Assembly (NCBI GenBank): GCA_903904875.1
Contig: CAIVEC010000034.1
Coordinates: forward strand, 1 to 43,392
Source: an uncultured bacterium
GTDB lineage: Bacteria; Patescibacteriota; Gracilibacteria; Absconditabacterales; Absconditicoccaceae
Direction: 5' to 3'
DNA length: 43,392 nt
Numbering within the stretch: position 1 is the stretch's first letter; every line of letters starts with the position of its first letter. Under the pieces are notes generated by a model that saw only the letters and a program-made list of their open reading frames with translations, was not told where the DNA came from and made no database searches. A program made the position numbers and the translations under genes. Below, one piece after another: positions 30,336 to 43,392 of this stretch.

Positions 30336-30412
30336 AAAAAAAACAGGAAGCAGGTTCCAGGGAGCAGGTAAAAAAAACCTGTAACTTGTAACCTTCAACC
30401 TGTAACTATTTT
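30336..30412. repeat. Intergenic repeat family 2 (CCTGTAACTTGTAACC), copy 1
   Basis: ACAGGAAGCAGGTTCCAGGGAGCAGGT on one side and ACCTGTAACTTGTAACCTTCAACCTGTAACTA on the other, joined by an A-run; the arms partly pair. Related copies are at 32751-32812 and, within mutY, at about 37790-37822. The TAG stop of ruvC lies inside this copy. Confidence 0.7.
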
Positions 30413-30876
30413 GTTTTTCATGCTATGTAGGCTAGTGCCAACGCATCAGCAGCATCGGCGAATTCCGGACATTCCTTGAGTCCGTAGAGTTTCGTGACGC
30501 ATTTCTGCACCAATTTCTTTTCTGCCTTGCTATTTCAGGTGACGAATTTTTTGAGCTGGATGGGCGTATATTCTTTGATCTGAATTTTCTGTCTAAGAAA
30601 CAAACTGATCAACGCTCACCTGACGCCATAGACAAATTCCGCGTTATTTTGGTTGAATTTTGTAAAGAAGAGTTTTTCTATGCTTACCATAGAAATCTTA
30701 TGTTCCTTGATGAATTTTTCAAAAAAATCATATATTTTCTGGATCCTGATGAACTGATCATCTCTCGTCGGATGTTTTTCCTCCAATAACAAAATACCCG
30801 AATCCACGATATTTAAATTCTTATTTACTAATGCGTATCCTAGTTTTCTAACTCATGGATCGATACCCAAGATCAT
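30406..30876 (-). CDS. ruvC: Holliday junction resolvase RuvC
   Basis: 156 aa, normal length. Cuts Holliday junctions in recombination. Conserved motifs: the first catalytic aspartate in MILGIDPGVRKLGYA (D6, with the following PG glycine as UGA), the glutamate in VSIEKLFF, and the C-terminal aspartates in FADAADALALAYIA. Under the standard code the gene would end at that IA; with UGA = Gly it continues GKTK to a TAG stop that lies inside a repeat element. ruvA and ruvB are not nearby. Confidence 0.94.
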
Positions 30877-30916: not shown

Positions 30917-30983
30917 CGTCATTCCCGCGAAAGCGGGAATCCAGTTTGCTAAGTGTAGATTCCCGATCAGGTCGGGAATGACG
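30917..30983. repeat. Palindromic repeat left of the GIY-YIG gene
   Basis: CGTCATTCCCGCGAAAGCGGGAATCC, a short spacer, then GATTCCCGATCAGGTCGGGAATGACG. There are two nested hairpins whose outer ends (CGTCATTCCCG / CGGGAATGACG) form a perfect inverted repeat. Such TCATTCCCGC elements are found in many unrelated bacteria. Confidence 0.8.
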
Positions 30984-31323: not shown

Positions 31324-31360
31324 TGGATTCCGGCTGCAATTCCTTGACGCCGGAATGACG
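31324..31360. repeat. Palindromic repeat right of the GIY-YIG gene
   Basis: GGATTCCGGC ... GCCGGAATGACG, with a 14-base loop holding AATTCC. The end AATGACG matches that of the element at 30917-30983, placing both in the same broad family. Confidence 0.65.
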
Positions 31361-37534: not shown

Positions 37535-37680
37535 CCTCACCCCCTCTCCTTCAGTATTGTAGTTTTTCCTCACCCCCTTTTTCCCCCTCTCCTTCAGAGA
37601 GGGGGATGATTACTGTTCCCTCTCTGAAGGAGAGGGTTAGGGTGAGGATATCGCTATCAAGCTGAGAGGTGGGGTGAGGT
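37535..37680. repeat. CCCTCTCCTTCAGAGAGGG palindromic repeat cluster
   Basis: Contains several related palindromes, including CCCCCTCTCCTTCAGAGAGGGGG (37583-37605) and CCCTCTCTGAAGGAGAGGG (37618-37636), plus the strings CCTCACCCCC and GGTGGGGTGAGG. It fills the gap between rsmI and the mutY stop. Similar elements are known in several bacterial phyla. Confidence 0.8.
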
Positions 37681-37686
37681 TGTTCG

Positions 37687-38520
37687 CTATTCTGCTATCG
37701 TGATTACTCATTTACTGACTTTTATCAATCATTCTTTTTTCATATCCTTGATAATTTTCTCTACATTTTTATGAGGAAAATCTTCTTTCAAACTTGTAAC
37801 TTGCAACCTTCAACTTGTAACTAGCTGCTTTAGCAGCGTTCAGCGGACTTGTCTATCGGAACCTTCGAACTTCGATTGTTTGGAAAGTGGCTTTATCTTT
37901 GTCTTACGAGCTGTCAGAAGCAACGCTCATTGATCCATGAGTGCGTTGTGCCGGTCACGAGAGCACCCGGGTGGAATTATTTTAGTTGCAAATTCTTCGA
38001 GTTCTTTAGCGGTAATTGTTTCAGGGATTTTGAATAAAAAAATCAATACTCTTCTGATATTCGTATCAATTACCGGTATAGGTAAGTTCCATGCGAATGC
38101 CATGATAGCGGCTGAGGTATACGGACCGATTCACGGTAGTTTTTGTAATTCAGCTCTGTCTTTTGGCAAATGGAGGCGATTGGTAATCGCCCCTACAGTC
38201 TTATCTTTTCTTGATACTTGATACTTGGTACTTGATACTATCTTCGCGCATTTTTGTAATCTTAACGCTCTGCTGTTGAATCATAATCCCGATCGATGTT
38301 TGAGCAGATCCGTTTTCGAAGCTTTGGCTAAGGTTTTATAATCAGGAAAATCTTTCATCCGCTGATGAAAATATGGTACTACCCTATCAACCTGCGTCTG
38401 CTGGAGCATCACTTCGGAAATATGGATAGCATACGGATCCCTAGTCTGTCTCCATGGAAGTTTTCTCCCGTTTTTAGCGTATCGAGAAAGGATATTTTTT
38501 TGGATGGTTGGGGTATTCAT
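37687..38520 (-). CDS. mutY: A/G-specific adenine glycosylase MutY, cluster-less, with apparent repeat-derived insertions
   Basis: 277 aa. Removes adenine opposite 8-oxoguanine. The N-terminal core is typical: LPWRQTRDPYAIHISEVMLQ with the catalytic Glu, QTQVDRVVPYFHQ, KLPGIGPYTSAAIMAF helix-hairpin-helix and PVIDTNIRRVL with the catalytic Asp. The four cysteines that hold the [4Fe-4S] cluster are absent: the region reads LLTARKTKIKPLSKQS. There is no MutT-like C-terminal domain; instead a short winged-helix-like tail ends in KKEGLIKVSKG. Two stretches (about residues 95-116 and 224-246) coincide with repeat DNA and look inserted in frame. The TAG stop lies beside the 37535-37680 repeats. Confidence 0.85.
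37785..37822. repeat. Repeat family 2 fragment inside mutY
   Basis: TTTCAAACTTGTAACTTGCAACCTTCAACTTGTAACTA matches the right arm of the family 2 elements at 30336 and 32751. Read in the mutY frame it encodes VTSGRLQVTSLKE, a segment with no clear counterpart in other MutY proteins. Confidence 0.65.
38170..38240. repeat. Repeat fragment inside mutY (GGCGATTGGTAATCGCC and CTTGATACTTGATACTTGG)
   Basis: GGCGATTGGTAATCGCC (38174-38190) is a perfect seven-pair hairpin, followed by CCCTACAG and then TTGATACTTGATACTTGGTACTTGATACT, a tandem ACTTGATA-type repeat. Both are types of sequence usually found between genes. Here they encode about 20 residues (VSSTKYQVSRKDKTVGAITN) without breaking the frame. 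Confidence 0.7.
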
Positions 38521-39185: not shown

Positions 39186-42100
39186 ATGGAACCAATTCAA
39201 AATCTCAGTACGCCAACCGATCAATCAACCCCTAAGTACCACAAGCATTTTCGGAAGTTCGTCTTCGGAGGAATGGTCTTGCTTACCGGGCTTGCTATCG
39301 GACTGATTTTCGTCTTTAATAAACCAGCACCTGCTCAAGCGCAGACAAACGCTAGCATCACGGGAACTGCAAGTGTAGGATCATTATTCACAGGTACGTA
39401 CACTCACACGAATGGTTGGCAACCAGTAGGGATAAAAGGATTTTCAGAATGATGAATAGGTGAGTCTTCACTCTTTCTCTATAACAGAACGCCATATATG
39501 GCATTTAGAGATTATACAAACCCTTCCTTTGGATCACCAGCGACCGTCATGAAATATGCTAGTGGAACTAATTCTTGGGAAGCTGTAGGCCCAACATGAT
39601 TTTCAGATGGCGAAATACAATCTCCTTCACTATATATATATAATGGAATCCCATATGTGGCATATTCAGATGGTGCAACTGGATACAAAGCGACCGTCAT
39701 GAAATTTGATGGTACAGGATGGGTAGCAGTCGGAAATAAAGGATTTTCAGATGGAGCGGCAGGTACTACTTCACTCTCTATATATGACGGAACACCATAT
39801 GTGGCATATAGAGATAGTACAACGATGAAAGCGACCGTCATGAAATATACTAGTGGAACTAATTCTTGGGATCCAGTAGGACCAGCAACAGGATTTTCAG
39901 ATTGATCAGCGTATTTTACTTCACTCTCTATATATAACGGAATCCTATATGTGGCATATTCAGATAATGCATACGTTTGAGGAAAAGCGACTGTCATGAA
40001 ATATACTAGTGGAACTGATTCTTGGGATCTAGTCGGAAATAAAGGATTTTCAGATGGACGAACTGATTATGTTTCACTCTCGGTTTATGATGGAACGCCA
40101 TATGTGGCATACAAAGATAATGCATATACTGGAAAAGCGACTGTCATGAAATATAATAGTGGAACTGATTCTTGGGATCCAGTAGGAAATAAATGATTTT
40201 CAGATGGAAAAGCAAATTATACATCACTCTCTATGTATGATGGAACGCCATATGTGGCATATACAGATTATGCAAATGGAACCAAAGCGACCGTCATGGA
40301 ATATAATAGCGGAACTGATTCTTGGGATCCAGTAGGAGATAAAGGATTTTCAGATGCACTGGCAATTTATCCCTCACTCTCACTCTCTATGTATAACGGA
40401 ACGCCATATGTGTCATATTCAGATGGTTTAGTTTTAGGAAAAGCGACCGTCATGAAATATATTACTGGCGATGAAGGGACCTCCCTCTACAAATGGTATA
40501 GAAACGGTGCAGAAATAACGGGAGCGACAGGAATAACATATACACCAACCATTGATGATATAGGTACAACAATCACTTTTGAAGTAACTCGAACAAATAC
40601 ACTATGAGAACAAGAAACTCCAGTACAAAGTTCAGGAGTGATGATACCATTCTCCTGTAGTGGTGTAACTGATATATCTATATGAGAATGTGAAGCATTG
40701 GTTGCACTCTACAATAGTACCGATGGAGATAATTGGTCTAATAATAACTATTGGTTAGAACCCTGAATTGTTTGTAATAATTGGCATGGTATTTTTTGTA
40801 GTTGAGGCCATGTAAGTGAGATTGATTTACAATCCAACCATTTATCTTGAGTTGTTCCTGTGGAAATTGGTAATCTTTCAAGTTTACAAATATTAATCCT
40901 TTGATGAAACCAGATTACTTCTATTAAGACTGGTGCTTTCCTCTGACTTTCTAGTTTAACTGATTTGATACTTAACAATAACCTGATCACTTCTCTTGAT
41001 AGTGGTACTTTCCTCTGACTTTCAGGTTTAACTACTTTGGTCCTTTATTATAACCAGATCACTTGATCTCTTGGGAGTGATGTTTTCAACTGACTTCCTA
41101 GTTTATGAAGACTATATCTTGATCATAACCAGATCACTTCTATTGAGAATGATGCTTTCAACTGACTTCCTAGTTTAGATTATTTGTATCTTAATAATAA
41201 CCTGATCAATTCTCTTGAGAGTGATGCTTTCAACTGACTTCCTAGTTTAACTCGTTTATATCTTCATCATAACCTATTAACTTCACTTTCTGCTTCTTTT
41301 ACGTGATTAACTACTATAACTACAGGAGATATCACTAATAACTGTCTCGTTATCGATCAACCTTCTCCCTTGCAAAGTTTCTTGGTAAGTCATGATATCG
41401 GCTATAATCCACAGAATCCTGGATGTGGAGGAAGCATAAATATAATTTTTACTCCTGATATGTGTAGCTGAGTGACAGAAATCCCTGAAAATGAATGTGT
41501 CGCTCTCATCGCACTCTACAATAGTACTGATGGTACTCATTGGATTAATAACAATCAGCGAGGAAATACTTGAGCTATTTGTAATAATTGGAATGGTATA
41601 TATTGTGCTTGATGACATGTAAATTATATTAATTTACAATGGAATAATTTATCCGGAGCTATTCCTACAGAAATCAGTGATCTTTCGTATTTAACTGATT
41701 TGTACATTGTTTCTAACCATATTAATTCTCTTCCAGAAAGTTTCACAGGATTAACAGGATTAACAAATCTCTATATATACAACAATTATCTATCACCATG
41801 TACTATGAGTACAGGACTCAAAGATTTTTTTGATAGTAAAAACCGATCTTGGCAATTATTACCATCTTATCAAATCAACACTTGTCCGGTATGTGGAAAC
41901 AGTATCACAGAAACAGGTGAAGTCTGTGACGATTGATGAAATAATGGCCGATCATGATATTGTGATATGACCTGTGACGGACCAACACCACTATTTTCTT
42001 GTGATAACGTCACTGATGTCTCTACGGGAGCTACGGGAGAATGTGAAGCATTGCTAGCTATCTACGATAGTATGAACGGTGCATGATGGTGAAGTAAACA

Positions 42101-43392
42101 ATACTGGTATGGTAATGCGGATCCTACTCCGACAACTGTCTGTGATTGGTATGGTATCAATTGTAATCCTAATCCTGGTCATGTAAGTCAGATTTTTTTA
42201 CGGTCAAATATTTTATCTGGAGCTATCCCTGCAGAAATCGGTAATCTTTCGTATTTGACTACTTTGTACCTTAATAATAACTCTATCACATCACTTCCTA
42301 CAGAAATAGGTGATCTTACTCATCTCACCCAATTAAATATTTCAAATAATCAACTCACCTCACTTCCTACAAGAATAGGTGATCTTTCTGGTTTACAATA
42401 TCTTGATGTAAGTCATAATCAGATAAGTACATTGCCTACAACAATAGGAGGACTTTCTGGTTTACAAACTCTGTATTTATATAATAATTTATTAACAGAA
42501 CTTCCAGATGAAATCGGTGATCTTGGTAATTTATATTATTTATACGTAAATAATAATCAACTAACATCGCTTCCTGAAAGCATAATTACCGGATTAACTA
42601 ATCTTCAATCTATAAATCCTAATTACAACTTTATACCCGTATGTACTATGAATACAGGACTCAAATATTTCATCAATAGTAAAGCATGATGAACTAGTCG
42701 GCAAACAACTCAAACCACCAGTATTTGTGGATCATGTGGAAACGGCGTCATAGAAACAGGTGAGGTTTGTGATAGTTGAATTAACAATGGAAATTTTTGA
42801 GCTTGTAATATAAACTGTGACTGACGAGTACCGCCATTTTCATGTAACGATATAACCGATGTCCCTATAAATGAATGTGAAGCATTGGTTGCTATATACG
42901 ATAATACATATTGATCTGGTTGGTACGATAGTACAAATCGGTTGAATTCACTTATCGTAGGAAATTGGCAGGGAGTAACAGTGACTACTAATACAAGTTA
43001 TTCATGTTGTATGATGGGCATGGGTTCCTGTCCCGCTGACCCTGCAAATGATTGAAATTGTTGTTTGGTTTGATGAACATGAATGTGTAATATGCCTATG
43101 TGTATGCCGTGGCAAATTATAACTTGTAATGTAGGAACAGGAAATGTAACTCAACTCAATCTACCATGAAATAATTTAGTATGAACTATCCCTACAGAAA
43201 TCGGTGATCTTTCGTATTTGACTGGTTTGAACTTAAATTCTAACCAGATTACTTCTCTTCCTGTAAGCATGACAACAGGATTAACCAATCTTCAATCCAT
43301 GGATCCTAATTATAACTTTATACCCGTATGTACTATGGATACAGGACTCAAAAATTTCATCAATAGTAAAGCAGGATGATATAGTCGGCAGA
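39186..43392 (+). CDS. Giant exported repeat protein: beta-propeller-like, leucine-rich and Cys-rich modules (3' end outside window)
   Basis: At least 1402 codons, running off the right edge. N-terminal signal/anchor (about 21-46, then APAQAQ). Next, seven repeats of about 48 residues (GFSDG ... SLSIYDGTPYVAYSD ... KATVMKY ... SWDPVG), likely a seven-bladed propeller. Then an Ig-like segment near residue 435 (YKWYRNGAEITGA), and LRR blocks, each opened by a cap like ECEALVALYNSTDGDNW ... C-W-GI-C ... LSGAIPTEIG. Two blocks are followed by Cys-rich modules (CGNSITETGEVCDDG type). In the LRRs the conserved Gly of F-x-G-L is UGA nearly every time. Probably a surface adhesin for attachment to another cell; that role is inferred from architecture. 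Confidence 0.88.

Follow-up and report, generated by a model that had tools for sequence, protein, structure and literature searches.

Repeat DNA of several classes in one loop of a cluster-less MutY across a genus of Absconditicoccaceae that reads TGA as glycine

The DNA-repair gene mutY of an uncultured member of the Absconditicoccaceae carries repeat DNA, in frame, in a loop that is an insertion hot spot among the mutY sequences of its genus. The explanation that we favor, and that we consider highly probable, is that the intergenic repeats of the genus (REPs tagged GTAG or CGTC, and period-7 DNA) also enter genes, and that a tolerant MutY loop has independently gathered different inserts in different species while the enzyme was kept. 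Intragenic repeats themselves are already known; the recurrent in-frame landing site in mutY is a striking example of them.

The analyzed stretch (the window) comprises 43,392 nucleotides on contig C34 of a draft genome of 0.97 Mb that is 87% complete (G000), whose genes are open solely under code 25, in which TGA encodes glycine. The gene and the elements of its first repeat segment are as follows:

37687..38520, minus strand: mutY, 277 amino acids under code 25, of the cluster-less MutY (MutYX) type
38167..38235, minus strand: segment 1, the variable loop, residues 96-118 (SSTKYQVSRKDKTVGAITNRLHL), net +15 residues relative to the short form, with low pLDDT
38175..38196, minus strand: GTAG-tagged REP, GTAGGGGCGATTACCAATCGCC, of the 22-nt family GTAGGGGCGnnTAnnAnnCGCC
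38207..38240, minus strand: period-7 tandem array with the coding-strand sequence (AGTATCA)n and 19/21 lag-7 matches

Both this segment and a second one, described below, lie where the initial annotation of the sequence had placed them, in frame and with the catalytic residues intact. The sequence that it quoted, CTTGATACTTG..., is the complement, as mutY lies on the minus strand. In the spacer directly downstream of the gene (37540-37660), inverted repeats of the type CCCTCTCC...GGAGAGGG are also found.

The mutY product matches HhH-GPD (PF00730, E 1.1e-16), and its best solved structural match is the cluster-less MutYX 8uuc (TM 0.82). The two are alike in fold, in the catalytic residues and in lacking the iron-sulphur cysteines, whereas 8uuc has a short loop at the place where the mutY product has repeat-coded residues. 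The product thus presents what characterizes MutYX, namely a MutY fold in which the catalytic Glu/Asp are present and the four cluster cysteines are missing. In the alignment of relatives, Glu36 and Asp152 are invariant and the iron-sulphur cysteines are missing in all family-level MutY relatives; the structure alignment drew on distant MutY genes from the contig scan. The AF2 model has a mean pLDDT of 91, and the loop, which lies just before the helix-hairpin-helix and adjoins it, is its main poorly ordered part (pLDDT 59-65).

Loop length was taken as the span from RLQ to LPGIG, where an alignment of MutY with 25 relatives shows extra residues; nine congeners are considered here (G000-G008, G000 counted in). 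G001, G007 and two neighboring genera represent the short form, with a span of 26 residues, while G000 has 41, a net gain of 15. In the six remaining congeners, the span is 31, 45, 40, 32, 32 and 53 residues. Extra loop residues are hence present in seven of the nine congeners, and in at least six of these seven they come from recognizable repeats of differing kinds. The insert DNA of G000 consists of a period-7 array followed by the GTAG REP, so that different repeat types are indeed involved, as had been expected, while that of G008 is a GTAG REP at the same position. G002 carries CGTCATTCCGG...CCGGAATC, a CGTC REP with a nested palindrome, G006 carries AAATTCA heptamers, G003 carries GGGTTGA heptamers around a palindrome, and G005 carries GGGTTGA heptamers with a further palindrome, GTAAAGACGC...GCGTC. 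No clear repeat was found in the insert DNA of G004. Because relatives show a clean gap at segment 1 and sister species hold different repeats in the same loop, there is good support for reading segment 1 as repeat DNA inserted in frame.

One could also consider that the inserts were domesticated, such that the repeat-coded loop tunes MutY through DNA contact, partner binding or mRNA structure, and that their diversity comes from selection. The presence of extra residues in most congeners and the position of the loop beside the helix-hairpin-helix would suit such a role, as would the frequency of intragenic REPs that Di Nocera et al. 2013 (PMC3733652) report in repair genes. Nonetheless, the inserts have no common sequence, the loop is predicted to be flexible, two congeners do without an insert, and arrays also occur in the non-repair genes gatA, gltX and mltG; we therefore regard domestication as improbable.

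The REP in segment 1, a short palindrome with GTAG at one end, belongs to a 22-nt family with 35 exact pattern matches across the genus, where reversed-pattern controls gave 0-1 per genome. G005 has 18 copies and G008 has eight, mostly outside long ORFs, and both elements of segment 1 have intergenic copies in congeners. In G000, however, the REP has a single further copy, which is degenerate with two mismatches, and the TACTTGA array has no second copy; multiple dispersed, mainly intergenic copies of the GTAG REP are thus a property of the congeners and not of G000. The REP in mutY should therefore be seen as a copy of a genus-level family rather than of a family active in G000, and the original claim that this segment coincides with repeat DNA found between genes is borne out in the congeners but not in terms of common G000 repeats. 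For G003, G005, G002 and G008, the type of loop insert is abundant in the species' own genome, which is not so for G000: GTTGARRGTTGA occurs 84 times in G003 and 23 times in G005 (and is absent from five of the nine genomes, G000 among them), and the CGTC REP occurs 11 times in G002. By pattern, nine CGTC-tagged REPs are found in G000. In the window, an inverted pair and a single CGTC-tagged REP lie between ORFs, at 30918-30982 and 31326-31359.

G000 and G008, which share the REP site, are not sisters in the MutY tree or in the DnaE tree, of which the latter is weakly resolved. Simple inheritance between sister species is thus unsupported by the MutY tree, and repeated insertion, loss elsewhere and exchange, whether as one event or two, cannot be told apart for this REP.

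In the mechanism that we propose, GTAG-tagged REPs, CGTC-tagged REPs and period-7 tandem DNA, which normally lie between genes, also end up inside them. The REPs may be moved by RAYT-like Y1 transposases, and slippage or template switching may spread the period-7 arrays. In the cluster-less MutY, the surface loop would tolerate added residues, so that in-frame inserts would survive there and accumulate independently, with repeats that differ by species; the inserts themselves presumably have no function beyond being tolerated. Y1_Tnp is present in G001, G003, G005 and G008, an assignment at the Y1_Tnp level in which the RAYT-like nature is presumed. Against the mechanism stand the observations that no Y1 transposase was found in the G000 draft (87% complete) and that the elements of segment 1 are nearly without other copies in G000, as does the REP shared by G000 and G008.

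Segment 2 differs from segment 1. It and its closest other copy are located as follows:

37791..37823, minus strand: segment 2, a period-7 repeat copy in the C-terminal helical region, without length change relative to relatives
30376..30408: nearest match to segment 2 elsewhere, with 30/33 identity, intergenic, its end falling at the stop codon of ORF 30406-30876 (minus strand)

Several further G000 copies match segment 2 at 26-28 of 33 positions, while shuffled queries reach 21-22. Here, the claim that the segment is repeat DNA also found between genes holds within the window itself. The segment lies in ordered helices of the predicted structure, and at the same site G006, G003 and G005 carry period-7 DNA with units of other types. 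Seven of the nine congeners, G000 among them, have a SDRQVRG-to-FPxK span of 27 residues. In-frame insertion, which the initial annotation had proposed for both segments, naming a clean gap in relatives at each as what would support it, thus stands for segment 1 only, and for segment 2 it is rejected, as relatives show no gap. Since repeat identity comes without a change in length, segment 2 is repeat-derived but not a net insertion, and it is best read as a stretch that was overwritten by repeat DNA.

Simple insertion does not account for the unchanged length at segment 2, nor for that at a period-7 array in miaB of G000, which also keeps the length of its relatives. Tentatively, and with less chance of being right than of being wrong, period-7 DNA may overwrite coding DNA besides inserting into it, with gene conversion or template switching replacing a helix or linker at equal length (mutY segment 2, miaB) and the fold surviving; a few permissive loops of repair genes would then be recurrent entry points for several unrelated repeat classes. 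Such replacement would be possible because a period-7 array encodes the same heptapeptide whichever frame is read and because TGA encodes glycine. Indeed, the three frames of an array yield a single cyclic heptapeptide, of which NSEFRIQ and KYQVSSI are examples, and several in-gene arrays hold in-frame TGA codons, which are stops under the standard code. Period-7 DNA is thus easily tolerated, as 7 = 1 mod 3 yields the same heptapeptide whatever the frame, and as TGA=Gly keeps open several array types that would otherwise carry stops.

Period-7 DNA is widespread in the genus. Arrays, defined by at least 18 of 21 lag-7 matches, were counted in 1.32 Mb sampled from four congeners, which yielded 149 arrays of period 7; most other periods gave 0-4 per genome, and period 8 reached 27 in G003. 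G000 shows the same excess, with 28 period-7 arrays in 312 kb and 0-1 for periods 5, 6 and 8-11, although it should be noted that the stretches of G003 and part of those of G000 were picked near repeat matches, such that array densities are biased. Of the 149 arrays, 33 lie deep inside ORFs of at least 150 residues, and the genes with in-frame arrays (NCBIfam names) include gltX, mutS, priA, rsmE, uvrA, mltG, tsaD, gatA, elp3 and miaB. In MutS, two linkers that are gapped in relatives hold different in-frame period-7 DNA in G008 (L110:2725-5451), G004 and G003 (L313). The tsaD gene of G007 (L048) contains an in-frame TACTTG-type array with a palindrome nearby, and has added residues relative to the tsaD of G008, which has another array. 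In uvrA of G008 (L113:18120-20000), three period-7 arrays of differing unit types lie in one ORF.

These counts also bear on whether the loop and the linker are simply A+T-rich coding sequence of low complexity that evolves fast and looks like repeats by chance alone. Both sites are variable within the family, and the lack of length change in the miaB array and in segment 2 would be in line with this. Nonetheless, the REP fits a strict 22-nt family with nearly empty pattern controls, segment 2 scores well above its shuffled queries, and the arrays are specific to period 7, on which grounds we reject chance resemblance as very unlikely. In addition, the mutY genes of the nine species (7.4 kb) hold four period-7 arrays, against an expectation of 0.21 (P about 7e-5, a post hoc value for which sampling favored repeat-bearing contigs in G003 and part of G000). 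That mutY is decaying, with the repeats as the mark of a pseudogene or an assembly artefact, is hardly credible and was rejected, for while the gene comes from a single contig of a draft genome and the heptamer part of segment 1 is seen in G000 alone, a separate assembly, G008, has the REP part at the same position, the predicted fold is confident, the frame is open with invariant catalytic residues, and pN/pS of the G000 gene is 0.20-0.26 against all congeners (loop excluded, with synonymous sites near saturation). From sequence comparison, purifying selection appears to maintain the MutY enzyme.

Repeats inside genes have precedents. Di Nocera et al. 2013 (PMC3733652) describe GTAG and CGTC REPs, their link to RAYTs and their presence inside genes, many of which serve replication and repair; they also describe different REPs at about the same recB site in two Xanthomonas and recall the RPEs of Rickettsia. 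The mutY case resembles these intragenic REPs in the tags, the palindromes, the in-frame intragenic place and the involvement of repair genes, but occurs in a TGA=Gly lineage, where one loop of a single gene has received several classes of repeat within a genus, tandem period-7 DNA as well as palindromes. The parts of that paper that were consulted do not name mutY. The comparison with Rickettsia RPEs made in the initial annotation is apt, as in both cases repeat DNA lies in frame inside functional genes, although the phenomenon is broader and has been described in many bacteria for GTAG/CGTC REPs, also within repair genes (PMC3733652). The likeness to RPEs concerns the mode of insertion only, sequences not having been compared; RPE-1 elements are longer palindromes, whereas mutY holds one 22-nt REP and heptamer arrays. 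Heptanucleotide repeats, such as TAACTGA, are known in cyanobacteria, Beggiatoaceae and others (PMC4679880), and are like the arrays of this genus in having period 7, in forming short arrays and in being mainly intergenic; here, however, the unit types are numerous and degenerate, and a substantial part of the arrays lies in frame inside core genes. Our searches brought up no literature specific to repeats in Gracilibacteria or other Patescibacteria.

What is new here is the recoded lineage, the one enzyme loop that takes several repeat classes across a genus, and the period-7 DNA in many core genes. The loop offers a natural experiment in which one repair-enzyme loop holds different repeat DNA in sister species, so that the cost of turning repeat into protein is directly measurable. 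The results also suggest two rules for repeats inside genes of recoded bacteria, namely that period 7 is frame-neutral and that fewer stop codons mean wider read-through. Repeats of another kind occupy the right end of the window (39417-43390), where large tandem coding repeats with units of about 150 nt are followed by leucine-rich-repeat-like units.
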